Shown piece after piece: positions 26,713-48,313 of a DNA stretch of 62,132 bases. The notes under the pieces are model-generated. The model ran no database searches and had not been told where the DNA came from. It worked only from the letters and a program-made list of their open reading frames with translations. This stretch comes from a virus: positions 1 through 62,132 of IMG/VR virus record IMGVR_UViG_3300035670_000211. One strand, given 5' to 3'. Each line of letters begins with the position of its first letter. Position 1 is the stretch's first letter. Both the position numbers and the translations under genes were made by a program.

Positions 26713-28296
26713 TTATAAATCGAACATGTTATCAACACTCATCTGCATTTCTTCTTCTTCTTGTTCTTCTAATTGTCTTTCGTCTTCTTCTAGCAACATT
26801 TGTAAATAAGATTTTTTAGGCTGCATATAAATTGATTCTATTCCTAAAGGTTCAATATCATCTGAGTAGTATATTAAAAACAAACCGTACGCATCGAGAG
26901 CATGGTCTTTACTTGCTCTTGCTAGTTGTGTTGGATCAACATCGTCATAAACAGCTTTGTCTAATTCGTCAATTAAGTTTTCGCAAGACTTGCTAATTCT
27001 AAATTTATAAACTCCATCTGAATTAACTAAGTTCATTGCGGAATGTATTTTGTCATAACGCATTTGAACTTTCCCTTTACCTGATTCCACTGATATAGGA
27101 CTTAACCCAGCTGCTTCAAAAACATCTGATTTTGTTTCTCCGATTACTCTTCCTTTTTCATCCCGATAACGATCACCTTGTCTAAACATATCATGAGGCA
27201 AACATGTTGCAACAATTTCCATACCTTCAGACTCTTTTGCGATTTCTTTTACAAAATCTTCAAAGACTAATTTTTGCCCATACATTTCTTTAAACGTAAC
27301 AATACGTTTATCAGGAAAAACTGCGTGCCATAAAGCGGAGTGATAAGATGGCTGGAATCCCCAGTCAATTGAAATATATACTTCGTAGTGTCCTTCCAAT
27401 CCGTTTAAATCTCTTTGGACAAAACGATCTTCTAGTCTTTGTTCTTCTTTCAAATCAAATACTTTTCCAGCAACAACATTCCAATTACCATACATATCCA
27501 TTTGTTTTTGATGTTCCGGCAATGCCATTAAGTTAGCAACATAGGATTCGTTTAAGAATGGATTGTCTTTATAAGAAGCAGGAATAAAACGAACATATCT
27601 TTTAATGACATGATTATCTTTTGGACTAATTACTTCTTCAACTTTATCTTTTGTTTGCGTCGGAGTAAAGTGTTCGTCGTATTTAATAACGGTCGGATCG
27701 ATAAATCTTTCTTTAACCCATGTGTGTCCAATACCACCAGGGTTACACCCGAAGACAACTTTGGTTGGAATCTTAATTGGTTTGCCCGTATACTTATTCA
27801 TAACTGTAGCGGAACGAACCATCGTTAACATATAGTCAATCGTACGTTCTTCGTGCTTGGTAACCTCGTCAACAATAAGATAGTGGAATTCCCACCCTTG
27901 TTTTTCTCTAGCTTCCGCATAAGATGCAACACGTTGTAGAGTTATGTAGCTTCCGTTAGGAAATACAATAGACCTACTAGGATACCAGCTCGATGACTTT
28001 TCTTTGTAATCGTAAAGCTGGACTCCTTGCGCATATTGTGGAAATAAGTTTGGCAACTTATCTAAGAAGGATTGTTTAACGGCGTCTAAGCTTTCGCGAA
28101 AGATTCCGATCTTTGCGCCTGGATATGTTTGAGCAAACATAAAAGCATCTGCTAAAGCCCCGGCTGATTTTCCAGAACCACGCGCTCCGCCGTATAAAAT
28201 AATCCAAAGATCTTCATAACTAACAGGAGCGTTATGTAAAAGCATTTGTTTTTGATGTGGTTTATAATTTGGTCTTACTGTAATTGTGCTAGGCAT
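26713..28296 (-). CDS. terL: Terminase large subunit
   Basis: The 527-residue protein packages DNA into the head. The ATPase domain has Walker A GGARGSGKS (36-44) and Walker B with the catalytic pair in LIVDEVT (140-146). The nuclease domain has ISIDWGF (Asp311) and KDHALDAYGLF (Asp468), both RNase-H-type metal residues. Its start codon overlaps the stop of the giant RNA polymerase gene in a TAATG arrangement, so it is translationally coupled to a 16.8 kb gene. It ends with an acidic, Glu/Gln-rich tail. Confidence 0.95.
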   Translation of the reverse strand: MPSTITVRPNYKPHQKQMLLHNAPVSYEDLWIILYGGARGSGKSAGALADAFMFAQTYPGAKIGIFRESLDAVKQSFLDKLPNLFPQYAQGVQLYDYKEKSSSWYPSRSIVFPNGSYITLQRVASYAEAREKQGWEFHYLIVDEVTKHEERTIDYMLTMVRSATVMNKYTGKPIKIPTKVVFGCNPGGIGHTWVKERFIDPTVIKYDEHFTPTQTKDKVEEVISPKDNHVIKRYVRFIPASYKDNPFLNESYVANLMALPEHQKQMDMYGNWNVVAGKVFDLKEEQRLEDRFVQRDLNGLEGHYEVYISIDWGFQPSYHSALWHAVFPDKRIVTFKEMYGQKLVFEDFVKEIAKESEGMEIVATCLPHDMFRQGDRYRDEKGRVIGETKSDVFEAAGLSPISVESGKGKVQMRYDKIHSAMNLVNSDGVYKFRISKSCENLIDELDKAVYDDVDPTQLARASKDHALDAYGLFLIYYSDDIEPLGIESIYMQPKKSYLQMLLEEDERQLEEQEEEEMQMSVDNMFDL

Positions 28297-31200
28297 TATC
28301 TTTCCTCATCATCAAAGTTCATAATGTTGTACCACGAAGCTCGATACGCTTTGTATGGGTCTTGAATTCTAAAGTACGGATTGAACCTTGTATTTCTTAA
28401 GTAACCATTTGTATCTAGTCTTGCAGGGTAACGATTGTTGTTTGTATATACTCTTGGAATATATATTTTTCTTGGAGTATTTTCGTAATTGTAAGTTGTA
28501 GTATATAAGTCATTGACTTGCATAACATAATCATCTAGGAAAGGATACGTTTGTCTTTCGTAAGCAATTGCATCCCGGATTGTTTTTTCTTCGCTGTCGC
28601 TTAATTGGCTAAGGAATCCTTCTAAGTTTTGGATCGTCGAAAGTTTGTATTCTAGACTGTTGTTTCTTAAAGCACTTCGAACTTCGGGAATGCCAACTCC
28701 ACTTTCTAAAGCATTAACAATAATACCATAGATAACAGATGGCTTTGCTTTTCTTCTTAAAGCTCTTCCAATTTCGGAACGAAGACTATTGTATTTCTCA
28801 AGATCAAAGTTTGATTGAGAGTATTCTCTACCTTCGGATTCTTTAAATCGTTCTGTTTGAATTAACGAATTTGCTTTATAATAATTTCTGATTTCAGATT
28901 TGTAAGCTGCAGTGTTTCCCATTTCTGCTTCGACAACCTTACCAAAACCAATACCAATCATTTCAATAACGTTATTGTTTTCATACTGAGCGTCTTTGTT
29001 TAAGTAAGTTGTTAACGCATTGGCACCAGATCCCCCAATCACATAACCTAAAAGTTTGCGTTGGAAGTTTTCCCACATAGACCATTGATCGCTAACGTCT
29101 CTAATGGTTCCGCCAAATGTATCAACGCCACCTAATGTTTCCGCCATTAATTTGGCCGGAGCAGGAGCGCGAGCCGCAATGTTGTCCAAAAAGAATCTTC
29201 CGACTCCGTCCATAAAGGTTCCACCTTCAGCCATTGCATCTCTGAATGGTTTGATCGTCATTGAATCTAACAAAGCATATTGGTTAAAAGTGTTAAAGCG
29301 GTTGATAACCGGAGACCCCGTATACATTGTTCTGAAAAGTTCTGGCATCCCGCCTTCTTCTTTCCATTTTTCTTTTTCTTCGTCTTCTAATCCAAGCAAG
29401 GTTCCCCAAATTTCAAAGAGTAACCATGGCAAAGCAAAGAGACCGGCTGTTCCTAACGCAGTTCCGCTTAACCATCTCACTGCGTCTGATCTATTTTCTG
29501 GCAACATTAAATCTTTTATAGCAACAGAAGCAGACCCAAGCATGTTACGAGCAAAGCGAGCAGCAGCTAATGGGAACGTACTAAACATAACTAAGCCCCT
29601 TAGTTTCTTAGCCATAATCGGGAAGTCACCAGGTGAACCAAGAACATTGGAAAGCATGTAACCCGCTTTACGTCCAGATGCAGAGACAATAATTTCTCCA
29701 CTTTCAGGATCTTTTTTCGCACTTAAGTTTTTAATTGCTTCTCGAACGTCATAGCTCGGTCCGTAGTTAACCGGTTTGTTTGTGTCAAATTTTTCTTTAA
29801 CTGCTAACCAGTAAGCATAACGACCAACAATATTTTGTGCAGCAAAGCCTTTTTCAAAAACATTGAAGTAAGCGTTGTCTAAAAGTTTTGATGTATTTTT
29901 TTCTGGATTATAATCTGCAAAGATTTCTGTAAGTTTTGTTTTATCTAAACCCATTCCGGTTTCGTTTAAGAACTCTTGCATCTCTGGACTAATCACAGCA
30001 AAGTTGCTTTGTAACATGGCACTAACTTCATTCATAGCTCTTCCAATTTTTAACATTGTCGTTGGTTCGCTAGAACTTAACGTTGCAACATCATACAACG
30101 TAAATCCGACAAGGCGATCGATAAATCTAAAAGGATTAGACATGATTAGTTTGGATGTTATTCCGTTTAATTTTGCAATAGAATCTAAAATTTTATTCGG
30201 CATTCTTGTGGTGAAAACTTCTTTGTCTAAAAAGTTTGCGAGTGATTTGTTGGTTACAAATACTTCTCCGCCAAGTGCATCCAACACAATATTCTTTTCA
30301 AAGCCACCACCAAAATAACTAAACTTAACTAAGTGTTTAAGTTCGTTGGTAGATCCCGGAAATAAAGCTTTATATTTTGTGGGGTCTTCAGACAATAATC
30401 TTCCAAATCGATCGGTAAGTTCGAGCCCATTCTTTTCTGCGTAAACCTTTAATCCTTCGTAGATTCCATTAAGAACACTCTTGTTTCCGCTATCTTTAGA
30501 ATCAATCATATTTGTTAACATAATTAATGTTTGTTCTTTGAATTCATAAAGCTTCATCATCTTATAAGCGACATCCCATTCTTTGGATTTTTTATCAGCT
30601 GTTCGAAGAGTATTTTCCAATTCCGTTTTGGACGGAACATTCTTGTTATGTAACGTTTCGTTAATCTTCTTGTAAATAGATAATAAGTTTTCGCCAAATG
30701 TGTTTTTGCTAATGAATTGTTTTTTGATTTGCATGTATGCAGCAAATTCATCTTCGGGTACAAAACGCATAATGTCGCTAACAAAGTTTTCGTAATTATA
30801 CATAGCTTCTTCTGCATTTTCTTTTTTAAATAAAACCATTTTCTTTGCTTCAATTTCCAAAATGTTTAATAAAGAATCTTCAACATATTCCATAACGCCT
30901 TTGTTTGCTGTCAATCCTAATTGTTTTATCTTTTGGCTCATGGTATAAATTGTGGCTTGTTTAGTTAAGATCGCAATTTTGTCAAACATGTTTACAAAAT
31001 AATTGGGTCCGCTTAAGTCTTTAGCTTTAAATAAAGATTCATCGTTATAGGTGAACATACTAATTTTACTTAAGACTTGCTCTCCTTTTTCAAAACCTTT
31101 TTTAACTTTAGGTTTGATTAAGTAAAGCAACATGTCACTAGCTTGATCGGTTACAATAGAGTATGCTCTAAATTGTTCGCCTAGTTGTTTGTTAACACTG

Positions 31201-34200
31201 TTGAAGTAATTTACTAACGGAGCGTAAGCTCTTTCAAAAAATGAAACAAACTCTTCGCCTGTATTATATTTGCCAAGTATTGCGCTATATTCTTCTTTGT
31301 AGTTTTTAAGAAGCATTGTCAATTCAACTTTGTCTTTTTCTAAAATACCTTCTTTGCCAAGCGCAGCTTCTATTTGTGGAATAACAACATTATAATATTT
31401 TAACGCGGCATATTTTTGCAACTCTTGATAAGCTCCATATCTTTCGGCAAGATCTGCCAAGTTTTCTAAAGGTCTTGAAAATTTCTTCATAAAGAATTTT
31501 TGGTTTGTCGCGTAATCTTTAACCATACGTTCAACTTCTAAATCAAGTGTTGTTCCAACTTTAATACCACCCGATGCTAAAAGATCGGCTTTAAATTGTG
31601 TGGTTAAAGCTTCTATGTTTTCTTGATATTCAATTCTCTTTTGGAATTGAGCTTCATAGCTATCACCAAAGTCTTCTTCGGGGTTAAGGTTTCTTAAAAG
31701 TGTGTCGAGCTGTGTGTTTCTAATTTCGTCTCCAAAAATAGCAGCTCTTTTAAGAACACTTTGCATATCTTCTCTTTCTTGTAATTCAAGCGCCTTTCCA
31801 TTTGCTTCACTAAATCCCTTGCTAATTAAGTTTTTGCCTAAAGCGTCTTTAATTGTTTTGCCTTTAGCATTCACAATATCCAAGAAACGATCTGAACTTA
31901 ATTTTTTTCTTAAGTCTTGCGTAACATTTTTTAAATCAGAATTAATAAAGTCTGGCGTATAAGCAAGTTGAATGCGTTGATCGTTTGGGTTAACAGCAAT
32001 ATTTGTTAACGAGAAAGGAAGATAGATACTTGGATTGTATCCAAACAATGTCGCTCTTTCATAGTTGTTTTTAGCGCGAGCAGTTGCTCCGATAATGTTT
32101 GCCAAGAATCTAGCTTCAGATCTGAACAAACGTTTATTACCGTTTCCTAATTCAACATTTAATTCTGGTCCATAGTTTTTACTTGTAAACTTCCCAGTTT
32201 CAGAATCAAAGGAGCGATAGTTTAAGTATTCTTCGTTTGTATAATCTTCTTGTGTTAATCTCGGAGCCCCTTGTTCAGAATAAAGAGATGGTTTTAAGAC
32301 GCCGCTTTCAACAGAGTTAACTGGACTTTTAATATATTCTCCTGTTTTTTGACTTGTCGATCCTTTGCCAATAACTTGCGGGTTGTCAATAAGGAGTGCG
32401 TCATTCAAATTGATTGTTCCGAAGTTATCAGAAATGGATCCACCAACACCTTGTCCTAAGTTTAAAATCTTTTTAATGCTTAAGTCTTGTAAGTTTTTTC
32501 TGCTTAAGTTGTAAATGTTTGTACCGTATGCTTCGTTTGTTTTGTTGATGAGGAATTGTAAGTATTCAACCATTCCCATGTTTCCAAATGCTTCGCTTAA
32601 AACAATGTTTTCGCCATACTTAGAAGTTGTAAGATCTCTTGCTAAACCACCTTGTGTTCTAAAGTTTCTAAGCTTTTTATTTTCTTGTGCATTCTTTCTT
32701 GCAAAGCTTGCGGTCTTTGAAGAGAATTCTAAATCAGCAACACTGGTTAAAATCCTTGGGTTGCCATCTTGTAAAAACATTTGATATAATTCATCGCTAA
32801 CAAGAATTTTTTCAATTGGGCTTAACCGTTCAAAGAAGTCTGGCTCAGATTTATGAAGAATTTTAAACTCTTTGCTAAATAAATCCATTAATTCAGACGA
32901 GCTGTAGTTTGTTAAATTTTTATATCGTTTTGTTTTTTCTGCTTCGCTTAAGTTTGAGTACTTAATATTAATTACGTTTAACATATACGCGTGCAATGAA
33001 GCTGCGTTGTTTTCTAATAATGTTGGTTGATTGTACGTTTCAAAAGATTTGTAACCGTCTTCAATAATTTTATCGGAGAATTTAATTTCATTTCCATCCA
33101 CTTCAAATAAATAATCTTTGGTGATAATTGGTCCGGTTAAATTTCTTCTGCCAGTTGAGATAGCAATGTCATCAGTAAATCTTTCTTTGAGATCTCTTCT
33201 GAAGAAAGATTCTTGTGAGATCATTGTTGGTAATTGTTTAATCATCCAAGCATCGGCATCTTTAATTGAGTCTACTTTTTCAAACTTACCATCTACAAAA
33301 CGATAGTACTCAACAAGACCTTTTTCAATTCTACTTTTTAGAATCTTGTTAAAGAAAGGCGTTGCATTCTTTTGTTTAAAACTATCTTGTGAAAAGACAA
33401 AGTCTGCTTCAACACCAGAATCGCGAATGGCGTTTTCTAAATTATCATTGACAGTTCCACCCAATGTGCTCTTAAAGTTTTTTGTTCCAGCAACAGTAAA
33501 CTTAAGATCAGCATCATATCCACGTTTGTAAGTGAAAACAACATTTAACGTGCCATCTTTATTTTTAATAACGCTTTCGATTTTAGATCCGGCTGGAATT
33601 GTTTTTCCATTGCCCAATAAGATATCCGACTTTAATATTTTTCTGTTTTGTGCTTGCAGACCCAAAAGAATTTTTGCATCTTCAAAGTTTACTTTTTCCC
33701 CGTACAATTTATAAAGCGAAATACTTTCTGCGCCGTAGGTTTTTTTATTTCCACGAACAATCTTGTGTGTATCAACTTCAATGTTTTCGCCAAACACATT
33801 TTGATTAATTAAAATCATTGCGTTTACGTGCATGTCGGAAACAAAACCATCACTATCTTTGTCATAAATATCGTGAACCGAATCATACATTTCTTTGTAA
33901 CTTCTTGAATTGTTTTCTGTCGAATCTAAAATCTTTTGTATTTCTAATTGGAAGTTTAAATTTCTTTTGGCTGAGTTGTTACTTGAAGCCCAGTAGTTGC
34001 CAAGATTATTTGATTTAATTGCGGCAAAAATTCTTTCCATCTTGGAATTAAAATCAAGCATTGTCATGTTTTCCAAATCGAATTCTTTTTTACCATCAAA
34101 AGCGCCAGTTAAAATTCCAAATGCTTTTAACACTTCTAGGTTTTCTGATTTAATTGAATCTAAAATATCTTTGTCTAAGTTTTTATACTGGTTTAACCCA

Positions 34201-37200
34201 AAGGCAAATTTATCTTTAGTGTCTTCTGATTCCATAATAAACTTGTTCATTAATTGAAATGCCGAGACAATGTCATTTCCAGTTTCTGCATTTGCAACAA
34301 GGTTAACAATATATTTGTACATATCAGAACCAATAATTCTTCTGACACTATCTGCTTGAGCAACCATTGAAGTTAACATTGCTGCTTTTGTTGCATCAAT
34401 ATTTCTAGAAATAATATTAAACGTTCCTTCTGAAACATCAAACGCTGCATAATTAAATAACGCTCGTCCATCTTGCGAATTAATTTTTTCAGACATTTTG
34501 TTTGTAAGTTTTTGTTTATATCCAGAATAAACGTCAGCAGCAGCTTGTTTTTCGAAGTTGAAAATTTTTGCAGCATTTAAAAGTAAAAAGGCATTTCTAT
34601 TAATTTCAATATCTGAAGCAAAAATATTTAACGAAACATATGTAAACGGGGATTCCCCAACAGACTTTGCGAATTCAGTGATATCATATTGCTTAATCCA
34701 AATTTGATCTAAGATGTCATCGAGATCTTTGTCACTAAACTTGTTGGCATCTTCTCTTAAAAGGTTTTTTAAATAATCTTTTCTTTGAGTTCTAAGTGTT
34801 TCATAGTTAATAGTATTTTTGTTTAAGTTATCAAGGTCGGCAACAATAAACTGTGATGCAAAGTTTCTTTGCGTTTCAAAATCAAGAACAACTTTTTGTG
34901 TTTCAGAAAGTGATCCTGATAAAATATTTTTTTCTTGAGTCAATAAAGAATCAAACCCTTGATCAAAAATATCGAATATTAAGTTATAGTTTTTTGAAAT
35001 TGCGGTATTAAAAGCCACCGATCCTTTGGTTGGTTGTAAGATTGAAATACTATCGCCATCAACGTCACCAGACAAGAAAGCTTTTAAAACATCAAGGTTC
35101 ATAATAGGTTTATTTAAATATTTTGTTTCGCTTTTATCTAAGATGCGAACATTTAAAACGGCTTGTCTTCCAATACCATCTTGAGGATAACGAATAATAT
35201 TTAAGGGAATATTTCTATATCTCTTTTTGCCCGTGTCGTCTGGATAAAAAACTTTTAACGAATCTTCATAAGAAATTCCTGTAAGTTCTTTATATGTTTT
35301 TTCACTCATTGCAATTTCGTTTGCTTTAAGTTTTTCTAAAACAACATCTCCCTTTTCGTTATAAAGTTTGTATTCTCTATTACGATCTGTCGCAGTTACA
35401 CGATCATAAAACTCAGAGCGTCTAAAGTTAGAACCAAAACTATATTTGTTCAAGACACTCTTAAGTTGGTTTAAGAATTTGTTGCTGCCAAACAAACCTC
35501 TTAAGCGAACTCGTTCTTCAAAACTATTTTGATCTAAGTTAACGTTTCTTAAATAAACTTCGGCAGATTTGTTTAACATGTTTAAGACAACATCCTCTGG
35601 CAATCCTTTAAAGACATCTTCAAATATTGTTTCTTGTGCGTTTCTAAACGAGTTAACTTCTCTTCTTGAAACTTCATTATCATTGACGGCTTGCAAGTAT
35701 TCTTTTCCTGTTCTTATCACCCCAGTGGTTTCGTCAACAAAGCTTGTTTCTAAAAAGTTTTCAGACGCATCACGAATAATATTTCCTGAATAAAGTTTTT
35801 TGTTGTTTTGGAAGTCTTCATACGAGATGTCTTGAATTCCCCAGTTTGTTTTTACAGCTTTTGCAAGAATGTTAAAAGCCTCTTCTTCGCTTTCAACCGA
35901 AAAGAATTCATCATATTTATATTGGCTAATTGCTCTTGTTCCGGTTTCTTCATATTCACTTCCAATTGCAAACTTAAATAAATTAAATAGATCTCCTGTA
36001 AAATAACCAGAAGCCGATTCTGATTCAATACCTTTTTTAACATAGGAAGAAACATTTGTATCTAAAGGTTTGTTTGGATATTTTTTAGCTAAGAAATATT
36101 CTAGCATTTGCGGTAAAAACCGACTTGTATTTTTTTGAATGTTTTCGTAAACTTTAATTTTATTACGCAAGTCATCGTTAATCATTTCATTAACTTTCTT
36201 GCGATAAACATCGCGTTCAATAGAGTCAAGATAATCTTTGATGACGCTCATTGATTTCCCAATAGCTTCGTCAATTGCCGACGTATTTTTTGGATCGAAT
36301 GCATCTCGATATGCTTTAACAAATTCTAAAGTTGATTCGTCACCAATATCTTCTTCTTTTATTTTTTCAACACCTTCACCAATACGGATTGTTGTTTCTT
36401 GATCAATCTCTCTTCCGGTTGCGGCTTTATGAATATCATCAAGCGTAACAAGAATGTTAGAAGTAATTCTATTTGTATTTTTAAAATCATCCGCCAAGAC
36501 AAATAAAACTTTCGCCAACGTTTTAACGTCTTCGATAGAATCGTGTGCGCCTAAAACTTTGACACCAAACCTTTCTGCTAAGAAACTTAAACTATTCTTT
36601 TGTTGATCTTCAAAAATTGTTTCAGAAATAAATCTTTTTTCTTTAATGATATCTTGCAAAACGTCTAAGTGGTTTTGGTTAAAGATGTTTTCTCTTGTAT
36701 TAAAAATACCAGACTTAACTAAAATACCATCAATGTCTTTGCTACCAAAGTCAAAAGATGCTCCGTTAAAAGAAACTAACAAAGGCAATTCTTTTCCAAC
36801 GTTAGTATATCCGTAGCTTGCTGCCTCTTTAATAATGTAATCTTGAACTGCTTTCTTTCCGAGTTTTTCAAAGTCAGGAATATTTTTAACAACGTTATCA
36901 ATATTTTTGAAATAGTTTTCTAAGTTTCTTAATGTAACTTCTTTATTATCTTTAATAAACTTGTCATAGAATTCCGGCATTAATGTTTTGATTTGTATTT
37001 CTAATGGTTGATTTCCCGGAACCAATTCATTGAGTAACGTTTTGTTTAAGAATCTTCCTTTATAAAACATGGGAATTAAAATCTTTTTGCCAGAGTTTGC
37101 AAATGCGTTGTTGGGATTTAACAATGTTTCTTTAAGATCTGTAACTGGATTGGTTTTAATTAAAGACATTTCGTAAACCATATTATCTAAACTTTCAACG

Positions 37201-40200
37201 TCACCGTAATAAAGTTCTTGGTTTAGTAATGATCTAAAATCATATCGTCCATTCATAATCTTTGTGTCTTCTGTGGATAAAGACTTAACAACAATATTAT
37301 TGATATCGTTGTTTAACATTAAGAAATTATATGTTGCTCCATTGTTTTTATTGTAAACAAAATGAGCAAAGATATCTTGAACGACTTTTTCTTCTCCAAG
37401 TAACGGACCATACTTTAAAGCCAACGCTTTAATTTGGTTTTGTGCTTTGACGGATGTTGTTCCGTTTTCATTTATCTCTATAAAGATTTCACCGATTCGC
37501 TTGCGATAATCTTCGTTGCTTTGATTTGCTTTTTTGTTTATGTTAAAATCAATCTGATTTTTTGTTTTTTCGTTATACAACTTTTCCACAATATTTTTTG
37601 CAACATTAAAGTTATACGGAATTGCTTCCGGATTGATTAAGTAAGCAAAGTTATTAATGTTTCTAATTAAATTATTTTGTTTTCTTGTATCCGTTCTATA
37701 GCTGGGATCACTCCAGCGGATACTGTTAAGACTTCTTTGTAAAGCCAAAGAGTTTGTTGGCGAACCAACACGAACGTTTTCACCCATTAAGAATAAATTT
37801 TTAATGAGTTGCTTTTTACCTCTCGGCGTATATTGATCTAAAAGTTTTTTAATTGTAGGATTTGTTTCTAAAACAGTTTGAATATAATCCGCTTTATCTT
37901 TGATCGTTGGATTTCTTGTAAGAACACGAGCAATTTTATCTTTCATCGTTTCATTTTCCAATGCTTGAAGTTCTCCAACTTCTTTTAAAATGTAGTTTGA
38001 AATAATTGATCGAACTTTGGTTTTGTTTTCTTGGTTTAATTCTAATGCTCTAAACCCTTCTCGCAAGTCACTACCACTAGCATTGAATGCATTCTTGTCT
38101 ACGTTAAACATCCAATAACGATCGCTGGTTTCGTTTTCGATATCTTTGAAGTAAATAAAACCAATTTTATCTAGAGCTTGCTTATTGTTTCCAGTGCCAT
38201 CAATCCCAATAACTTTGCCAGTTTGTTTGTCGTATAAAAAGAAAGCAGGGAAACTACGATCGTATGTCACGCCGCTTGCTTGATTATAAAGAGACATTGC
38301 AATTTTAACATAGTCTTTTGTTGTTAGCGAAGGATCTTTTTCACCCATGAAATCTTTTAAGGCTTTGCTAACACCAGCAATGTTATAAACATATTCACCT
38401 AAAAATTTGGCGTGGCTTAAATTATTCATTAAACGAGACGCAGAGAAAGAACTATAAAGATCTTCTTCGAGCATGTTTTTAAATAATCTCATTAAATTGT
38501 CTGTTGCAAAATCAGCAAGAGAAAGTTTGATTTGTTTCTTTCCAATTTGAGGTTCTGCTTTAGATCGGCTTGCTGCTTCTTGAATCTGTTTTTTAAAGTT
38601 AGATTTACTTAAAGGATCGTTTGCTTTAACAACGGCTACTGCATTTGTTCTTGAAGCAGAAGGTGTATTATGCAATTTAATAAATGATTTTTCATACGTA
38701 TATGGTTTTCTGTAGTTTTCTTCAAACGTTTGGCGATAATACGTACTATTTTTTTCGATTGATTTAAATTTTTCTTCTAACTTTTGAATTGAATCTTTTG
38801 CAATTCTTCCGTCAGCAACTAAAATGTTTTTGATTTTTTTAAACTCTTCTGGAGATAGTCTAAATAAATCTTCCACAAAGATATTTAATTTGTTATCACT
38901 TGAAGAAGATGTTTCTAGAATTGCTAACAATTTCGAAATGGTTGGGTCTTGTAATTCGTTGTTTGCTTTATAACTTGACGCTCGATAAAACTCATAGTCG
39001 TTTTTAAACGTATCGATGATATCATCAATGTCTGCAACACTAATAGTACCTTTAAGGTTGTTTCTAACGCCTAAGCTTTCAATATTGTAACTTGTAACTT
39101 TGTCTGTCTCTTTTTTGCTAAAGTCTGCTAAAGATCCAGGATCTTTTTCTAAAACATAGACCTTTTGTCTTTCTCGTTTATTTTGATTTTTAATAAAATC
39201 ATTAATTCGATTGACAATTTTTTGTTTGATTGCATCTTTGTCTGCTAAGTTTGCTGATTCGATTTCTTCTAGACCATCAGCAAGCATTGTTTTAATTGTT
39301 GAATCTGCAAGAAGTTCTGCGAGGTTTTTGTTATCAGAGTTAAAACCAAATGTATTATTTTCTCCAAACAAAATTTCTTCCGTGTAAAATTTTGCACCGA
39401 TCAATTGACGATATAACATCGTAAAGTAAATATTGTTTTTGAATCTCGGATCGTTATTTAATTCAATAATCTCTGCAAAGGTTTTTCCTTTAACAGCATC
39501 AATAACTTCTTGTTCGCCGTTTTTAATATCGTCACTAACAAAACTTTTATATGTAATGTTAAATGGAGCTCCATACATTTCTTTAATAAAGTTTTCTGAA
39601 TAAATGGAGCGAACGTTTTCGTTTACGTAAATAATTAAATCCGCACCAGAACTATTTCTTTCCAAACGTCTTGCATTTGAAACGGCTCTGTTCGTACTAT
39701 CTTCCAAATTATTTTGTTTTAAATAATCGGCCATTGCCACTTCATAGCTTGATGGTTTGTCATACATGACTAATGGTAAAATGTATTTAAGTTGTACGTT
39801 GTTAGGATTGTTTTGCAAATAGGTTAAAGCTTTTTCTTGGAACCCAAGTTTTGGAGCAATTTCATATTGTCTAAATTGTTCTCCGGCAACTTTTCTTTTT
39901 GTAATTGGCGTTATATCATAAAGATCGCCATTATCTTTAAAAGCTTGAACTTCTTCATCGGTTAAATAAACAATAAGTTTGTTATACGATTCTTCTGTTT
40001 GTTCTGCTTGACCTCTTGTTTTATTAGCGAATTCATCGATCGTGCGAATGACATCATAAATAAAATGATCTCTTTGCAAGTTTGCATCGATACCAATGGA
40101 TGCACCTGGTAAAGCTCTAGACATCGCATAAGCTTTAATTAATAAACCACCTAGCTTACCTTGTTTAATTTCCCCGCCTTTGAATGCGTCAAACACAGAT

Positions 40201-43200
40201 GTTACATATGTAACTTTAAAAGGATTATCTTCTGTACTTTCAACACCCAAGAATGTTGGAATAAATTTAACACCGTCAAATGTAAAGACGGTATCGTCCG
40301 TAATATAAGGGACGCCACCTGTTCTTTGAATAAGGCGTTCGCGATAATCCAAGTTCGATTTAATTTCTTGTTTTATTTTTTCATCAACTAGTTCCGTTGC
40401 TCGAGTTCTCAAGCTTCGCAAGAAAGCATTCTTTTCTTCAATGGATCCAAAAGATAACGACATTGCTTTTCCGGAATTTTCTACGTGCATATAAACTCCG
40501 TCAATGTCTTCCATTTGATTTTCGATATCATAAATATCGTAACCAAACTTTTCTAGAATGTTTATTAAAACTTGTTTTTGATCTAGACTTTTAAAAACAA
40601 TTCTTCCGTCTTCCATATAAAATTCAAACGTTAAAAGACCACCCGTTTCTTTTAATTGATCGCGATAAATCATTGGAAGGTTTTCTTTTTGTGTCAACTC
40701 TTTCATAAGTTCGACACTGGCAACACTTGCGTAATCTTTACCAAAAACCATTTTAATTAATTCTTGGGGATCATCTAGTTGATTGCCAGATTCCGCGCGA
40801 ACATTTGGGTTGGATAGCGCTTGTCGAAGTTGTTTCCAACGGCTACCAATTAATTCGTTGACATTTAAAACAATTTTAAAACTAGACTTTGCGTCAGCAG
40901 TGTCTTTAATAAACCATTCTGAAAATAACTTTGAAGCAAATGTCATTCGTTCTCCGCTTCTTGCGTTTTCAATAAATGTTTTGGTCATGTCTGGGTCTTT
41001 AAAGACCGACGCGTGAACCAAAGCTCTTGGAGAATATTTTTCTCCGTTTCTTTTTTTGTTTTTAGAATATTCGTCAAACGTATATTCAGGTTTGTTCTTG
41101 GAATTTTTTTTATAAATGTTCCAAATAAATTGATCAACAAGTGTTTTGTCTTGATCGCCGAAAAATACAGACCTAAATGTTTGCGAATTTATTTCTTGAA
41201 CCGTTTCGAAAACATCTTCAGCGGTTACTGATTTTCCGAACTTGTTATTTGCGTCTTGGTTTTTTAACGCGACGTTATCTATAATATCGCGTATGTCTGC
41301 TTCTGTTAAAGCGACAGGGGTTTGACTGGACGTAACTTTACTTAAGACACCCTGTAACACTAGTTTTCTGAACTGATTTTTTTCTCGGGCAATTCTTCCT
41401 TCTAGGTTTTGTCTGTAAGTTCTTCCGGATTCTTCTTGGAACTTTTCTTTGAATCCTTCGGAGTTTATAAATTCTTCTTCAATGAACCGTATGATTTCTT
41501 GATCTTCTTTTTTGTTGGGATCAAATCCTGAACCAAGGAGGGAACTTGAGAAGATTTTTTTTAAACGAGCTACGTCCGTCTGGGGGTTTATGCTTGCTGC
41601 TATTTTTAATTCGTCTTCGTTAATAAGCCTCTTTTTAATTAACTCAGCTTTTACTTCTGCCGGTAAGTTTTCATAGAATGTAATAAAAGCTTGAACTCTT
41701 TTATACATTTCCGGCGACACAGCCTTGTTACCTTTCGGAATGTTCGAAATGTCATCCTTTAATGTTTTGATTTTTTCTAATGCTGCAGAGTATTGAAAGG
41801 CTTCTTCAATTTTTGAAAACGACGTTCCGCTAATTAGAGAGCGGTTGTTTTCAATAATGTTTCGAATGTTTCCATTGTTTAACACATCCGCAAGTTGTAA
41901 GGTTGTTAAGTAACCTTTGCTTGCGAGTGCGTTTAATGTCTTAAGTACTCCGTTAACCTTATCTGGTCTTTTCATCAGATCGTCAAATTTTTCGCCTGTA
42001 AGATTTTCTAGTAAGTATTTTAGTGCCGTTGCTTTATCTTCAGCATTATCTGCAAACTTAATGGTAAATAAATTAACCATCATCGCATTTAAATTTTGTG
42101 CGTTTTTAGCTCCCATACCAATATGAACCATTGGAATTAAGTACACGTCACTTTCACCAATGCGTTCAATTGTACGAACGCCGCCTTCAACTTCGGATTC
42201 TGCAGCGACAACATCAGATAATGTTTTTAAAATCTGAATTGCTTTTGCGTATTGTTGTTGAGATTCTGAATCAGAAGATCCTTTGTTCCTTGGCATAATA
42301 ATATAAAAATCCGCCAAAGCTTTTGCGTCACCGCCAAGTTTTTCTGCAATAAATTTATTTAAATTTTCAATAATTTTAGTTCGATCTGCTTCTGGCAACT
42401 TGCTTAATTTATCAAGAAATTTATTTTTAAGAACAATTTCGGTTTTTTCTTTTTTTGTTTTTTTATCTTTTGTTACTTGAATTTCAAAAACATCTCTCAT
42501 CGAAACGGGATCTGCTTCTGACGTTTGTAACAATTTTATAACTTCTTCTCTGTTTTTAAAAACAGCAATCTGATCGTTCTTCGTTAACAAACTAACAACT
42601 TCTGAAGCTTCTGTTTTATCAAACGTTCTAATTTGGGCAAGTCCAGAAACAAAACCTTTAACAACCGTATCAATCTTTTTAAGTTTGTCGCTAGTCATTC
42701 CTTCGTATAATTTAGATGTAGGATCAAAAATATCACCCGTTATAAAAGAACTTTGAACCATTCCGTTTTTAGCAGCAACAAAGTTTGAGTATTGTTCTAC
42801 TGCTGCATTGGTTGCAAGAATAATTTCTTCTCGCATATTTTCTTTAAATTTCTTTTCCATTGCTTTAGAAACAGGAGAAACATTGCTGTCGTTCTTAAAG
42901 GTTTCGTGTAAATAAACCAACGCATCTTGCGTTCCCAAAACAATATTTTTATCTTTTCTACCACTTTGCATTGCTCTTGCTTTTTCAATGGTTTTTAAAA
43001 TAGCATCAGCTGCATCTGTTTTTCCTTCAGCAGAAAGTTTATCAGCAAGTTTTAAATACGAAACAATTTCACCTTCGTACATTTTTTGGAGGTTACCTAG
43101 TTTAACTGTAACTCCAGCAACACCCATTTGCATATCGTCGCCACGCAAACCGCCAGCAACGTTACGGAAAAGTAACGATCCTTGCAAGGCTATGTTTTGG

Positions 43201-45110
43201 GGATCAAACAATGAACCCCATGCTTTTAAGTCAAACATATCACCAGTTGTAGCAAGTGACGATTGTGTTCCCATGGTAAAAAAGTTTTCTACCATATCCA
43301 TAACGGAGTTAACAACAATAAAACTTGTTCTTTGAGAATAATTTTTGCTCCAATTCAAAATAAACGTAGACCAACTATTTGACATCAAATTATTTGCTTT
43401 AATGTTTGCTGCGTTTCCAAACGTTGCTTTTTGCCACGTAGCTAAACGCGTTAAGGCTGGCGTATCACCAACCGATCGCAAGAAGAATGAAATACCAAAG
43501 TTCATGGCAGCCATTGTTGCAGCTTTGCCTACGATTTCTCCAGTTTCCATTCCGAGTTGTGCTTTGTTTGCTTCAAGCGCAGCAACGGTTGTTGTAAAAT
43601 CTTTGACGGCTAAAAAGCCTAGCCCACGTACGGTTGCTTGAGTTGCTGTCAATAACGTACCGGAACTTGAGTAAACACCTTGGCCTAAACCAATCATCCC
43701 GTTAATCGCGTTACCAATACCACGAGCTGCTTGATATTTTAATCCTGTGCCAACGGTAGCTCTTACGGTTTGCCCAGATGCAAGTGTAATTGATTTAACA
43801 CCGGCATTTGCTAGCAAGCTTGCACCTTTGGTTGCCGCCAACATACCGACTAAAAATCCAAGTCCTCTTGCTGTGCCACGGCCAATACCGTCCCAGTTCA
43901 CAGATCCATCAGAGTTTGTCCAACCCCCATTTGCTTCATAAACGCCATTACCAAATAAATATTGAGATGCTTTCCAGCCTTCAACATTTTTATAGGTTTC
44001 GGCAAGAATGTCAAATTCAAAATCGCCGCCGATCATTTGAAGGGCGTCGGCAATACCAGCACCGGCATAAATAAACAAATCACCAATCCCGGCAATGGAA
44101 CTTGCAAACCCTTGAATAAACTGATCTCCGTAAACGCCAAAGATTGCAGGAATTTCAATACGGTTTAACGAACCGTCTTTATTATAGTACGCTTTCGCGC
44201 CACGTTCACCAGCTTCACCTGGATCATAAACTTTATAAAGGATTCCGTTGCGGTGAAGATACCAATCAACCTTACCATCGCCATCTTCATCAATGGTTGG
44301 ATTAAAGTCTTTAAGCAAACCTGCTTTATATAAACGAACGATTTCCGTTTCCGATTCAATGACATCATCGAGTGCATCGAATTGTTCTTTGAACAACACG
44401 GCAAGTTGCTCGTCTTCTAATTTGTTTTGATCTTCGAAATTTGAAAGCAACGAATTACGCGTTGTTAACGTATTACGTTGAGAGTACCATACTTCGCGTT
44501 GATACATAGCTTCGGCTTGCGATAAAATATTTTGTAAATAGGTTAAATTATCGATGGGTGAATCCATCATTCCTTGCTTACGTCGGTTATACCAATAGAG
44601 CGAGGATTTTAAATCATGCCCTTCGGCTTTAAGAATGTCTTCGCCATATGCGCGAAATAAAAAAGTTTGGTATCCGATTCTTCCTTCGGACACATCCTTT
44701 TCTAGTTTCTTAATTTTTTCTTCCCGTAGCAAGAGCTTTGCATCGAGTTCGAATCCTTTTGGTACAAATTGGTTTTGTCTGTAGTATTCCGTAAAGGATT
44801 GATCGTCACTTAATCCAACCGCTGCTCGTAATTCAGTTGCACGGGTAACACCTAAGGTTTCACCGTAAATTGATTTATTGCTAGGGGGTGTATCATATGT
44901 CGAAGCGTCACTTACTCGGACTACTCCAGATGCCCATTGTACCGAACCTTCTTCAGTAGCTTTATTGATCTCATCATCTTGAAAGTCATTTACATTAAAG
45001 CGAGGTGTTTCAAACTTCGGTTCAGGAAGTTTTAACTCTGGAGCTTTAAGCTCGACTTTAAACGGATCAGGAAGCTTACCGAATGAAGGGTCGAAATTTT
45101 GACCATCCAT
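28296..45110 (-). CDS. Giant polyprotein with two-barrel RNA polymerase and DEDDh exonuclease domains, probably virion-packaged
   Basis: A single unbroken frame of 5,604 codons covers 27% of the window. The polymerase signature lies at residues 3299-3353: RNIPLNIIRYPQDG, then SGDVDGDSIS, with Asp3349, Asp3351 and Asp3353 matching the DxDGD metal site of the beta-prime barrel, preceded by the RxPxxxR-type block. Upstream lies a DEDDh exonuclease: DVES (Asp2637, Glu2639), VYEMSLIK, FNGASFD (Asp2787) and HDSIED (His2856, Asp2861). An EF-hand-like Asp loop is at 274-282. Hydrophobic segments occur at about 320-640 and 5200-5240. Virion RNA polymerases of crAss-like phages and N4 are comparably large ejected proteins, so packaging is inferred. 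Most of its length remains unassigned. Confidence 0.85.
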   Translation of the reverse strand: MDGQNFDPSFGKLPDPFKVELKAPELKLPEPKFETPRFNVNDFQDDEINKATEEGSVQWASGVVRVSDASTYDTPPSNKSIYGETLGVTRATELRAAVGLSDDQSFTEYYRQNQFVPKGFELDAKLLLREEKIKKLEKDVSEGRIGYQTFLFRAYGEDILKAEGHDLKSSLYWYNRRKQGMMDSPIDNLTYLQNILSQAEAMYQREVWYSQRNTLTTRNSLLSNFEDQNKLEDEQLAVLFKEQFDALDDVIESETEIVRLYKAGLLKDFNPTIDEDGDGKVDWYLHRNGILYKVYDPGEAGERGAKAYYNKDGSLNRIEIPAIFGVYGDQFIQGFASSIAGIGDLFIYAGAGIADALQMIGGDFEFDILAETYKNVEGWKASQYLFGNGVYEANGGWTNSDGSVNWDGIGRGTARGLGFLVGMLAATKGASLLANAGVKSITLASGQTVRATVGTGLKYQAARGIGNAINGMIGLGQGVYSSSGTLLTATQATVRGLGFLAVKDFTTTVAALEANKAQLGMETGEIVGKAATMAAMNFGISFFLRSVGDTPALTRLATWQKATFGNAANIKANNLMSNSWSTFILNWSKNYSQRTSFIVVNSVMDMVENFFTMGTQSSLATTGDMFDLKAWGSLFDPQNIALQGSLLFRNVAGGLRGDDMQMGVAGVTVKLGNLQKMYEGEIVSYLKLADKLSAEGKTDAADAILKTIEKARAMQSGRKDKNIVLGTQDALVYLHETFKNDSNVSPVSKAMEKKFKENMREEIILATNAAVEQYSNFVAAKNGMVQSSFITGDIFDPTSKLYEGMTSDKLKKIDTVVKGFVSGLAQIRTFDKTEASEVVSLLTKNDQIAVFKNREEVIKLLQTSEADPVSMRDVFEIQVTKDKKTKKEKTEIVLKNKFLDKLSKLPEADRTKIIENLNKFIAEKLGGDAKALADFYIIMPRNKGSSDSESQQQYAKAIQILKTLSDVVAAESEVEGGVRTIERIGESDVYLIPMVHIGMGAKNAQNLNAMMVNLFTIKFADNAEDKATALKYLLENLTGEKFDDLMKRPDKVNGVLKTLNALASKGYLTTLQLADVLNNGNIRNIIENNRSLISGTSFSKIEEAFQYSAALEKIKTLKDDISNIPKGNKAVSPEMYKRVQAFITFYENLPAEVKAELIKKRLINEDELKIAASINPQTDVARLKKIFSSSLLGSGFDPNKKEDQEIIRFIEEEFINSEGFKEKFQEESGRTYRQNLEGRIAREKNQFRKLVLQGVLSKVTSSQTPVALTEADIRDIIDNVALKNQDANNKFGKSVTAEDVFETVQEINSQTFRSVFFGDQDKTLVDQFIWNIYKKNSKNKPEYTFDEYSKNKKRNGEKYSPRALVHASVFKDPDMTKTFIENARSGERMTFASKLFSEWFIKDTADAKSSFKIVLNVNELIGSRWKQLRQALSNPNVRAESGNQLDDPQELIKMVFGKDYASVASVELMKELTQKENLPMIYRDQLKETGGLLTFEFYMEDGRIVFKSLDQKQVLINILEKFGYDIYDIENQMEDIDGVYMHVENSGKAMSLSFGSIEEKNAFLRSLRTRATELVDEKIKQEIKSNLDYRERLIQRTGGVPYITDDTVFTFDGVKFIPTFLGVESTEDNPFKVTYVTSVFDAFKGGEIKQGKLGGLLIKAYAMSRALPGASIGIDANLQRDHFIYDVIRTIDEFANKTRGQAEQTEESYNKLIVYLTDEEVQAFKDNGDLYDITPITKRKVAGEQFRQYEIAPKLGFQEKALTYLQNNPNNVQLKYILPLVMYDKPSSYEVAMADYLKQNNLEDSTNRAVSNARRLERNSSGADLIIYVNENVRSIYSENFIKEMYGAPFNITYKSFVSDDIKNGEQEVIDAVKGKTFAEIIELNNDPRFKNNIYFTMLYRQLIGAKFYTEEILFGENNTFGFNSDNKNLAELLADSTIKTMLADGLEEIESANLADKDAIKQKIVNRINDFIKNQNKRERQKVYVLEKDPGSLADFSKKETDKVTSYNIESLGVRNNLKGTISVADIDDIIDTFKNDYEFYRASSYKANNELQDPTISKLLAILETSSSSDNKLNIFVEDLFRLSPEEFKKIKNILVADGRIAKDSIQKLEEKFKSIEKNSTYYRQTFEENYRKPYTYEKSFIKLHNTPSASRTNAVAVVKANDPLSKSNFKKQIQEAASRSKAEPQIGKKQIKLSLADFATDNLMRLFKNMLEEDLYSSFSASRLMNNLSHAKFLGEYVYNIAGVSKALKDFMGEKDPSLTTKDYVKIAMSLYNQASGVTYDRSFPAFFLYDKQTGKVIGIDGTGNNKQALDKIGFIYFKDIENETSDRYWMFNVDKNAFNASGSDLREGFRALELNQENKTKVRSIISNYILKEVGELQALENETMKDKIARVLTRNPTIKDKADYIQTVLETNPTIKKLLDQYTPRGKKQLIKNLFLMGENVRVGSPTNSLALQRSLNSIRWSDPSYRTDTRKQNNLIRNINNFAYLINPEAIPYNFNVAKNIVEKLYNEKTKNQIDFNINKKANQSNEDYRKRIGEIFIEINENGTTSVKAQNQIKALALKYGPLLGEEKVVQDIFAHFVYNKNNGATYNFLMLNNDINNIVVKSLSTEDTKIMNGRYDFRSLLNQELYYGDVESLDNMVYEMSLIKTNPVTDLKETLLNPNNAFANSGKKILIPMFYKGRFLNKTLLNELVPGNQPLEIQIKTLMPEFYDKFIKDNKEVTLRNLENYFKNIDNVVKNIPDFEKLGKKAVQDYIIKEAASYGYTNVGKELPLLVSFNGASFDFGSKDIDGILVKSGIFNTRENIFNQNHLDVLQDIIKEKRFISETIFEDQQKNSLSFLAERFGVKVLGAHDSIEDVKTLAKVLFVLADDFKNTNRITSNILVTLDDIHKAATGREIDQETTIRIGEGVEKIKEEDIGDESTLEFVKAYRDAFDPKNTSAIDEAIGKSMSVIKDYLDSIERDVYRKKVNEMINDDLRNKIKVYENIQKNTSRFLPQMLEYFLAKKYPNKPLDTNVSSYVKKGIESESASGYFTGDLFNLFKFAIGSEYEETGTRAISQYKYDEFFSVESEEEAFNILAKAVKTNWGIQDISYEDFQNNKKLYSGNIIRDASENFLETSFVDETTGVIRTGKEYLQAVNDNEVSRREVNSFRNAQETIFEDVFKGLPEDVVLNMLNKSAEVYLRNVNLDQNSFEERVRLRGLFGSNKFLNQLKSVLNKYSFGSNFRRSEFYDRVTATDRNREYKLYNEKGDVVLEKLKANEIAMSEKTYKELTGISYEDSLKVFYPDDTGKKRYRNIPLNIIRYPQDGIGRQAVLNVRILDKSETKYLNKPIMNLDVLKAFLSGDVDGDSISILQPTKGSVAFNTAISKNYNLIFDIFDQGFDSLLTQEKNILSGSLSETQKVVLDFETQRNFASQFIVADLDNLNKNTINYETLRTQRKDYLKNLLREDANKFSDKDLDDILDQIWIKQYDITEFAKSVGESPFTYVSLNIFASDIEINRNAFLLLNAAKIFNFEKQAAADVYSGYKQKLTNKMSEKINSQDGRALFNYAAFDVSEGTFNIISRNIDATKAAMLTSMVAQADSVRRIIGSDMYKYIVNLVANAETGNDIVSAFQLMNKFIMESEDTKDKFAFGLNQYKNLDKDILDSIKSENLEVLKAFGILTGAFDGKKEFDLENMTMLDFNSKMERIFAAIKSNNLGNYWASSNNSAKRNLNFQLEIQKILDSTENNSRSYKEMYDSVHDIYDKDSDGFVSDMHVNAMILINQNVFGENIEVDTHKIVRGNKKTYGAESISLYKLYGEKVNFEDAKILLGLQAQNRKILKSDILLGNGKTIPAGSKIESVIKNKDGTLNVVFTYKRGYDADLKFTVAGTKNFKSTLGGTVNDNLENAIRDSGVEADFVFSQDSFKQKNATPFFNKILKSRIEKGLVEYYRFVDGKFEKVDSIKDADAWMIKQLPTMISQESFFRRDLKERFTDDIAISTGRRNLTGPIITKDYLFEVDGNEIKFSDKIIEDGYKSFETYNQPTLLENNAASLHAYMLNVINIKYSNLSEAEKTKRYKNLTNYSSSELMDLFSKEFKILHKSEPDFFERLSPIEKILVSDELYQMFLQDGNPRILTSVADLEFSSKTASFARKNAQENKKLRNFRTQGGLARDLTTSKYGENIVLSEAFGNMGMVEYLQFLINKTNEAYGTNIYNLSRKNLQDLSIKKILNLGQGVGGSISDNFGTINLNDALLIDNPQVIGKGSTSQKTGEYIKSPVNSVESGVLKPSLYSEQGAPRLTQEDYTNEEYLNYRSFDSETGKFTSKNYGPELNVELGNGNKRLFRSEARFLANIIGATARAKNNYERATLFGYNPSIYLPFSLTNIAVNPNDQRIQLAYTPDFINSDLKNVTQDLRKKLSSDRFLDIVNAKGKTIKDALGKNLISKGFSEANGKALELQEREDMQSVLKRAAIFGDEIRNTQLDTLLRNLNPEEDFGDSYEAQFQKRIEYQENIEALTTQFKADLLASGGIKVGTTLDLEVERMVKDYATNQKFFMKKFSRPLENLADLAERYGAYQELQKYAALKYYNVVIPQIEAALGKEGILEKDKVELTMLLKNYKEEYSAILGKYNTGEEFVSFFERAYAPLVNYFNSVNKQLGEQFRAYSIVTDQASDMLLYLIKPKVKKGFEKGEQVLSKISMFTYNDESLFKAKDLSGPNYFVNMFDKIAILTKQATIYTMSQKIKQLGLTANKGVMEYVEDSLLNILEIEAKKMVLFKKENAEEAMYNYENFVSDIMRFVPEDEFAAYMQIKKQFISKNTFGENLLSIYKKINETLHNKNVPSKTELENTLRTADKKSKEWDVAYKMMKLYEFKEQTLIMLTNMIDSKDSGNKSVLNGIYEGLKVYAEKNGLELTDRFGRLLSEDPTKYKALFPGSTNELKHLVKFSYFGGGFEKNIVLDALGGEVFVTNKSLANFLDKEVFTTRMPNKILDSIAKLNGITSKLIMSNPFRFIDRLVGFTLYDVATLSSSEPTTMLKIGRAMNEVSAMLQSNFAVISPEMQEFLNETGMGLDKTKLTEIFADYNPEKNTSKLLDNAYFNVFEKGFAAQNIVGRYAYWLAVKEKFDTNKPVNYGPSYDVREAIKNLSAKKDPESGEIIVSASGRKAGYMLSNVLGSPGDFPIMAKKLRGLVMFSTFPLAAARFARNMLGSASVAIKDLMLPENRSDAVRWLSGTALGTAGLFALPWLLFEIWGTLLGLEDEEKEKWKEEGGMPELFRTMYTGSPVINRFNTFNQYALLDSMTIKPFRDAMAEGGTFMDGVGRFFLDNIAARAPAPAKLMAETLGGVDTFGGTIRDVSDQWSMWENFQRKLLGYVIGGSGANALTTYLNKDAQYENNNVIEMIGIGFGKVVEAEMGNTAAYKSEIRNYYKANSLIQTERFKESEGREYSQSNFDLEKYNSLRSEIGRALRRKAKPSVIYGIIVNALESGVGIPEVRSALRNNSLEYKLSTIQNLEGFLSQLSDSEEKTIRDAIAYERQTYPFLDDYVMQVNDLYTTTYNYENTPRKIYIPRVYTNNNRYPARLDTNGYLRNTRFNPYFRIQDPYKAYRASWYNIMNFDDEER

Positions 45111-45134: not shown

Positions 45135-45161
45135 ATTATACACGAACTTTAAAAAAGTCAA
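45135..45161 (-). promoter_or_regulatory. Promoter for the giant polymerase gene
   Basis: TTGACT (45156-45161) lies on the minus strand, overlapping the stop codon of the upstream gene. It is followed by TATAAT at 45135-45140 (15 bases away) or the overlapping TAATAT (17 bases). A ribosome site (AGGAG) follows before the ATG at 45110. Confidence 0.65.
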
Positions 45162-45787
45162 TCTATTTCTTCAACGTATTTAAATTTAATTTTATGAAGA
45201 TCGCTTTTTGAGCGCTTTGTCATCTTGCCTTTAATATGGCGACGGAACGAACTAATCGAAACATTTAATTCATCGGCGGCTTCTTTAAGTGATTCGAATT
45301 TAACCCAATGTTTATTAATTAAAACCATAATCGTTTTTCCTCGGTGTGTGTGATCGAACTCAACATGAGGCGGAACAATCAATAAGTTTTTAAAATTACA
45401 GTCTTGAATCTTTTTATTCCGGTGATAGATCTTTGATCCGGGAACCCAAGTCCGAGAAAACGTGCGTGCCACGAGGTTTTTAACCGAGTAGCGTCGGTGA
45501 TTAATTACCACGGCCAAAAAAATTTCATGCTTTTTATTTTTATCGCGTTTATAAATTTTCATCGGAACGCGAGAAAACTTATTCGCAAGCGGTCCATTTT
45601 CCGTAAGATCTTTTTTCATGTACTTCGTGACGTAGCCACGAGAGTGAACATAATATAAACAATGACGCGTTTCCATAAAGAGCCGTTGATAATGCTCCCA
45701 GTTTTTCCGCCGACGTTCTTCGAGTTCTTCGATCGTCAAAGGATCCGGTCTTCTAATACTTAAAAATAATTCAATGAGATCGTCCAT
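45158..45787 (-). CDS. HNH/NUMOD-type endonuclease-like protein
   Basis: The 209-residue protein looks like a free-standing homing endonuclease: KNLVARTF (about 103-110) then PGSKIYHRNKKIQDCNFKNL, where the usual pattern is VNHIDGNKxNNxxxNLE. His122 and Asn131/Asn134 are kept but the Asp of the HxD pair is Asn, and the final metal His may be His146. The C-terminus (163-188) is a NUMOD1-like helix-turn-helix (FESLKEAADELNVSISSFRRHI). It may be degenerate. It lies next to the giant polymerase gene, a common target of homing endonucleases. Its start follows a -10 box by six bases with no ribosome site. Confidence 0.6.
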   Translation of the reverse strand: MDDLIELFLSIRRPDPLTIEELEERRRKNWEHYQRLFMETRHCLYYVHSRGYVTKYMKKDLTENGPLANKFSRVPMKIYKRDKNKKHEIFLAVVINHRRYSVKNLVARTFSRTWVPGSKIYHRNKKIQDCNFKNLLIVPPHVEFDHTHRGKTIMVLINKHWVKFESLKEAADELNVSISSFRRHIKGKMTKRSKSDLHKIKFKYVEEID

Positions 45788-47934: not shown

Positions 47935-48067
47935 TAGTAATATCTTAGTAGTATATTAGTGGATAAGTGGTAGTTTGGTTGGGTCATGTACAATATATTA
48001 GACATGTGATGTTGGGTATTATCATTGGCATGGGTAAAAAACTTTTTCCACAGCCTCTTTTTCAACC

Positions 48068-48313
48068 AACCTTGGGTGAAAGCATACTTTACGCTCTAAC
48101 CTTTGTCTATTATACTTTACATCATAACGTGTAATTATGCGTTATACCTCATCTTCCTTTTTTCCGAATCTTAATTTGCGTTTTAACCTTGGGTAAAATG
48201 TAAGATACACTCCAACTATGCAGTGTATTCTACGATTTTTAACGTGTATTATATTGTTACAATACTCGAAAATTGTAGTGTATTATGCATTCTATTTTTA
48301 CCTTGGAGAAAAG
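48068..48313 (+). repeat. Three iterated AACCTTGGGT-type motifs about 115 bp apart
   Basis: AACCTTGGGTGAAAG (48068), AACCTTGGGTAAAATG (48185) and TACCTTGGAGAAAAG (48299) are spaced 117 and 114 bases. The first two are followed at similar distance by ACGCTCTAAC and ACACTCCAAC. A TTTACG-17-TATACT pair follows the first copy. They may be phage promoters or binding sites. The rest of 47940-48390 holds no gene. Confidence 0.5.

Follow-up and report, generated by a model that had tools for sequence, protein, structure and literature searches.

Genomic setting of the giant gene

The stretch of DNA analysed here (the window) is a single IMG/VR virus record. It is linear, 62,132 bp long and may be incomplete. 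On its minus strand, positions 28296-45110 form one uninterrupted frame of 5,604 amino acids, with an ATG start preceded by an AGGAG ribosome site and a TAA stop that shares letters with the ATG of the terminase gene (TAATG). A first-pass annotation of this DNA had reported an intact frame at this place, which was borne out; the strand, which it did not give, is minus. Within the protein, RNIPLNIIRYPQDG occupies residues 3299-3312 and SGDVDGDSIS residues 3347-3356, in agreement with the earlier numbering of the three aspartates as 3349, 3351 and 3353. The same annotation called the product a polyprotein. No support was obtained for this term, as neither a protease domain nor a sign of processing was found in the giant. 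Features of the locus are collected in Table 1.

Table 1. Coordinates of the giant gene, its conserved regions and neighbouring features in the window
Feature	Position	Strand	Evidence or remark
Major capsid protein	21857..23452	-	PHROG 14242, 3e-10
SU10-type (podovirus) portal protein	24131..26074	-	Pfam PF23899, 9e-9
Terminase large subunit	26713..28296	-	PHROG 979, E 1e-34; start codon overlaps the giant's stop
Giant protein gene	28296..45110	-	Single open frame; terminase follows directly
Best conserved C-terminal region, residues 4890-5604	28299..30443	-	About 30 invariant columns
Helical region after barrel, residues ~3373-3639	34194..34994	-	Low-confidence model helices
Beta-prime-type catalytic barrel (DPBB-A) by homology, residues ~3205-3372	34995..35498	-	A12 profile against PDB, Pfam PF00623
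DVDGD, predicted Mg2+-binding triad, residues 3349-3353	35052..35066	-	Asp invariant in 10/10 giants
DEDDh (DnaQ/RNase T-like) 3'-5' exonuclease by homology, residues ~2628-2890	36441..37229	-	Pfam, PDB profile, fold match
Conserved N-terminal region, residues 90-620	43251..44843	-	About 15 columns invariant across the 10 giants
Three WACCTTGGGTRAAA-like copies, ~115 nt apart, ahead of rightward block	48067..48312	+	Sequence repeats

The giant gene lies among virion genes, with terminase, portal, capsid and tail fibre downstream of it, and apart from the genes for a D5-like helicase and AAA_24. No tape measure or tail-tube genes were recognised in the window, and the phage therefore looks podovirus-like. 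The terminase was nearest to those of Arthrobacter and N4-type phages (~27%), the portal matched Arthrobacter phages alone, and the capsid matched none of the 50,697 annotated phages, Crassvirales records included. None of these three proteins points to a crAss-like affiliation. By sequence comparison the phage appears not to belong to the Crassvirales and to fall outside every annotated phage group tested. Just upstream of the giant gene are a tRNA-Arg (TCT; 46471-46546, minus strand) and an HNH endonuclease-like ORF (45158-45787, minus strand).

Relatives of the giant

When the RNAP part and the C-terminus of the giant were used in tblastn searches of annotated phages (50,697 records), no match was obtained, and the RNAP segment, used as a single-protein query, yielded none from IMG/VR either. 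Because this direct scan gave nothing, relatives were reached through the terminase. Five loci with 60-87% terminase identity were found in this way, two more were added by means of a terminase alignment, and three were located in bacterial MAG contigs. Full giant frames of 4,995-6,082 aa lie directly upstream of the terminase in nine of these metagenomic contigs; that of G004 spans the ends of a self-overlapping contig, and its two parts were joined for alignment. Overall identity among the ten giants is 15-39%, compared with 60-87% for the terminase, which suggests that the giant evolves very fast, as reported for crAss-like RNA polymerases (PMC7886860).

The MAGs containing L025, L026 and L027 carry the labels Bacilli, Acholeplasmatales (yak rumen) and PVC group, although binning of phage contigs is weak evidence of host. 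A separate PolA DNA polymerase gene is present in four of seven relatives (G002, G003, G005 and G008). Neither the window record nor the self-overlapping contig G004 has one, which points to gain or loss within the group. A search for the PolB family was uninformative, its control being silent.

A beta-prime-type catalytic barrel

Few columns of the alignment are invariant between residues 700 and 4880. D3349, D3351, D3353 and P3309 are among them, being unchanged in all ten giants; the proline closes an R-x-P motif (R-Y-P, residues 3307-3309) ahead of the DxDxD loop. The preceding Pro and following Gly/Pro are kept together with the Asp triad across an otherwise almost unconstrained alignment. 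The first-pass annotation had proposed that variation of the three Asp residues in homologues would speak against a polymerase, and in these ten diverged proteins no variation was seen. The motif also sits at a nearly fixed distance from the C-terminus, 2,141-2,532 residues in all ten giants. For a shuffled giant the expected number of D[hydrophobic]D[GS]D patterns is 0.05-0.14; the pattern was observed in 10/10 of the homologous proteins, and so exceeds chance expectation.

Ten 186-residue segments were combined into a profile (A12), which was searched against 177,635 PDB sequences, with matches accepted up to E 10. Thirteen of the 14 matches were RNA polymerase largest subunits. The best was archaeal Rpo1N (E 6.7e-4), and African swine fever virus RPB1 and plant Pol IV and V were also found; the printed matches align through RQP and DFDGD, in register with the catalytic loop. 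An earlier profile of the whole region, built from five sequences, had found Rpo1N in the same register (E 2). Pfam RNA_pol_Rpb1_2 (PF00623) matched four of ten relatives, only G005 exceeding the curated cut-off (28.4 bits, E 2.3e-6). Single sequences were less informative. With the window's own segment, phmmer found no match in PDB, and PHROGs and Pfam searches of the window giant alone returned RNase_T as the sole match. When the family was aligned by hhalign with the single sequences of phi14:2, gp96 and gp64, the DxDxD neighbourhood alone aligned and the scores were meaningless. Weak Pfam matches in the giants are to be expected, since the proven phage two-barrel enzymes, phi14:2 RNAP, P23-45 gp96 and gp64, gave no relevant Pfam match either.

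The PDB profile, the Pfam match in G005 and the invariant Asp residues together indicate that the DVDGD segment is, by homology, a beta-prime-type catalytic barrel. They also uphold the original assignment of the metal site to the beta-prime, two-barrel kind and not to the T7/N4 kind. PF00940, the model for T7-type polymerases, did not match the giant, which counts for little as the control genomes were silent too.

A DEDDh exonuclease upstream of the barrel

The first-pass annotation had left large parts of the giant unassigned. This holds for most of the chain, where all the other slices, scanned with Pfam in 9-10 relatives, gave chance-level singletons and no recurrent family. It does not hold for residues ~2628-2890, about 450 residues upstream of the DVDGD segment, which by homology are a DEDDh exonuclease, a domain absent from that annotation. 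The motifs in the window protein are D2637-x-E2639, N-G-x-x-F-D (D2787), D2816 and H2856-x4-D2861. Among the nine giants with this domain, the residues of D-x-E and H-x4-D (D53/E55/H272/D277 of A7) do not vary, and the middle Asp is found in most. In all nine the exonuclease precedes the polymerase segment in the chain. The tenth giant, G009 (L029), lacks the region or has it in degenerate form; it keeps the RNA polymerase motif and so offers a natural comparison for the role of the exonuclease.

Pfam RNase_T scored 24.0 bits, equal to the cut-off, in the window protein and at best reached 7.8e-6 in a relative, and the DEDDh_C, PolA and PolB exonuclease models likewise matched the region. The exonuclease profile found PolB exonucleases in PDB at E 1.5e-4, and also PolC, TREX2 and RNase T. 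In a structure model (model 1, below), superposition of the domain gave Z 7-9.9 with ERI3, TREX1/2, RNase T and oligoribonuclease. The D-x-E, D and H-x4-D motifs and the fold are thus common to the giant and to DEDDh exonucleases such as RNase T, TREX, ERI/3'hExo and DnaQ. The difference lies in the setting, as here the domain is embedded in a giant phage protein beside an RNA polymerase barrel. No DEDDh match was found in the three large phi14:2 proteins or in residues 1-3000 of gp96, and our literature search found no paper that places a DEDDh domain next to a two-barrel RNA polymerase, nor one on this phage group.

Structure models and the second barrel

Two AlphaFold2 models were compared with known structures. 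Model 1 (residues 2585-3783) was poor overall, with a mean pLDDT of 49.5. Its Foldseek list was dominated by beta-prime/Rpb1 chains, none with E<1e-3, and was headed by the AR9 non-virion RNA polymerase (E 0.012). VIA-align placed Rpb1 residues ~346-640 on residues 640-1044 of the model with a middling Z of about 6. Model 2 (residues 3199-3639) had a mean pLDDT of 54.3 and a pTM of 0.53, and its barrel confidence was slightly above that of model 1. The order of strands and helices in model 2 could be that of a double-psi barrel, but fold searches with it returned no RNA polymerase, helical and unrelated chains alone being found. As the structural evidence is mixed and both models are of low confidence, the claim of barrel homology rests on the sequence profiles. 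The first-pass annotation had named a model without a double-psi barrel around residue 3350 as counter-evidence; on this point the two models diverge, beta-prime subunits being retrieved by model 1 alone. The modelled helices that follow the barrel, residues ~3373-3639, may correspond to the bridge helix and trigger loop, which would be expected at this place.

The second barrel of a two-barrel enzyme is of the beta type and contains lysines. It was looked for with PF00562, to which none of seven genomes had a match at E 10, and model 1 has no strand-rich region between exonuclease and catalytic barrel. The conserved K3880/K4132 and a 'GG' region near 1651 were considered as the second barrel and dropped, since the alignment there is unreliable.

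Terminal regions of the giant

Neither of the two conserved terminal regions has a Pfam match. A hydrophobic segment lies near 5215-5240 in the window protein and keeps this place near the C-terminal end in most relatives, and the C-terminal region (residues 4890-5604) is a candidate packaging or ejection part. In the N-terminal region a D-x-DGDG-x-x-D-Y-Y-L-H motif, which recalls a calcium-binding loop, is conserved in the window protein (residues 274-289, window 44244-44291) and its relatives.

Comparison with known phage polymerases

Virion RNA polymerases with the same catalytic motif include the 5,002-aa gp96 of P23-45 (PMC10770324) and the RNAP of the crAss-like phage phi14:2 (PMC7886860). 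A single-chain two-barrel polymerase with D-x-D-G-D, as the window giant probably is too, gp96 resembles the giant in size, in extreme sequence divergence and in very long non-polymerase regions. In gp96, however, the polymerase occupies the N-terminal part (DFDGD at 779 of 5,002), whereas the predicted polymerase of the window giant is central (3349 of 5,604). Moreover, gp96 is a siphovirus tape measure with a metallopeptidase, while the window giant is encoded beside the terminase in a podovirus-like genome and contains a DEDDh exonuclease.

The phi14:2 enzyme (2,180 aa; PMC7886860, PMC10770324), a two-barrel single chain and virion protein of a podovirus, evolves very fast like the giant, which is probably of the same kind. 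It too is a large protein among giant proteins, but crAss-like phages have several large proteins and the window phage has one of 5-6 thousand residues. No tblastn match and no meaningful profile score linked the two enzymes. An injected virion polymerase such as those of crAss-like phages or P23-45 is nevertheless the best functional analogy for the giant. On this analogy it most likely works like gp96 and the crAss-like RNAP, yet a tape-measure identity lacks support.

The overall plan also recalls the virion RNAP of N4 (Schitoviridae; ~3,500 aa), in which the polymerase lies mid-chain between N- and C-terminal packaging or ejection parts (PMC12633501, PMC5512222). N4 is podovirus-type, has ~70 kb and one giant protein, and its terminase is distantly similar to that of the window phage. 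The N4 enzyme is of the T7 kind (PMC5512222) and the giant of the beta-prime type; the shared plan is one of analogy and not of homology. The AR9/phiKZ jumbo-phage RNAPs (PMC7598289) have the same catalytic barrel and are split into several subunits, in contrast to the one chain found here.

Proposed function

In our view the giant, which belongs to a podovirus-like lineage, is likely to be a single-chain two-barrel RNA polymerase that is packed in the virion and ejected from it, and that has a 3'-5' exonuclease attached. It is gene order that points to virion delivery: the gene is in the virion block and its stop overlaps the terminase start. The giant would be made late, together with terminase, portal and capsid, and its conserved C-terminal and N-terminal regions would take it into the head. 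Its domains, loosely joined in one chain, would then pass into the host by threading, either together with the DNA or before it. In the host, Asp3349, Asp3351 and Asp3353 would bind Mg2+, and the polymerase would transcribe the first genes (rightward, 48-60 kb) without the host RNA polymerase. The exonuclease may trim 3' ends, most simply those of backtracked or misincorporated RNA, or host nucleic acid.

Undetected beta-type barrels and low-confidence models would also fit a polyvalent virion protein whose RNAP module is crippled or lacks the second barrel, the triad serving another nucleotidyl transfer, such as primer synthesis, or metal binding. We regard this as distinctly unlikely. The known single-chain phage members are unrecognisable to Pfam as well, beta barrel included, which counts against a missing barrel, and the Asp triad and its flanking Pro and Gly/Pro are kept where so little else is constrained. 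That DVDGD is a chance or calcium-binding motif with no polymerase meaning is scarcely credible. The N-terminal D-x-DGDG motif (residues 274-279), with its resemblance to a calcium loop, lends this idea some colour, but it is strongly disfavoured by the PDB profile search, with its coherent homology to RNAP largest subunits, and by the invariance and fixed place of the aspartates.

The presence of the exonuclease raises the question of a DNA polymerase. Two-barrel folds include one, archaeal PolD with its proofreading nuclease (PMC4996933), and DnaQ-like exonucleases usually accompany DNA polymerases; the profile matches here include those of PolB and PolC, and the window record and G004 lack PolA. 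Even so, we think a DNA polymerase analogous to PolD very improbable. The PDB profile matches are RNA polymerases and not PolD DP2, the PolD nuclease is a separate subunit, DP1 (PMC4996933), and the giant gene is placed with virion genes, away from the helicase and AAA_24. Four relatives with the same giant have their own PolA; the giant is therefore not needed as a DNA polymerase and is probably an ejected virion RNA polymerase. Compatible with such an RNA polymerase is the view that the exonuclease is an independent injected effector, acting in degradation of host nucleic acid or in counter-defence, to which we would give a little less than an even chance. Giant injected phage proteins often string together unrelated effector domains (PMC5512222), and G009 has the polymerase motif without the exonuclease; the constant position of the domain ahead of the polymerase segment in 9/9 giants fits either role. 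Rather unlikely, in our estimate, is a more intimate arrangement in which the RNA polymerase proofreads or rescues itself through the DnaQ-type nuclease of its own chain, in place of intrinsic or GreA-type cleavage, with the exonuclease possibly between the barrels. An exonuclease so inserted would place the beta-type barrel upstream of residue 2628.

Cell-type virion RNA polymerases are already known from crAss-like phages, jumbo phages and Thermus phage P23-45. What is added here is a separate lineage, podovirus-like, with members from several metagenomes and three bacterial MAGs; its proteins are even larger, and an exonuclease lies beside the polymerase. If the RNA polymerase reading is true, the giants would represent, in a new and widely separated form, a strategy that only a few phages are known to use, and the history of two-barrel polymerases would gain an independent branch that is highly diverged. 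The giant would also be a test case for the threading of an enzyme of >600 kDa out of a capsid, and would let one ask whether an RNA polymerase uses a DnaQ-type nuclease on its own transcript.

The rightward gene block

Ahead of the opposite-strand, rightward block (48-60 kb) lies a non-coding stretch of ~1.2 kb. The WACCTTGGGTRAAA-like copies located there are, speculatively, candidate early promoters for the phage polymerase. The relatives lack the WACCTTGGGTRAAA-like element, though some have repeats of their own, and the promoter reading is kept as speculative because the motif ACCTTGGGTRAAA is not common to them. The block, which is probably early, contains a MoxR-type AAA ATPase and a VWA-domain partner (51806-53785 and 54564-56177, plus strand). 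A GroEL/Cpn60 chaperonin homologue, unusual for a phage of this size, is encoded at 59824-61326 on the minus strand (Pfam PF00118, E 5e-30), and L031 and L036 have minus-strand ORFs of similar size at the corresponding place.
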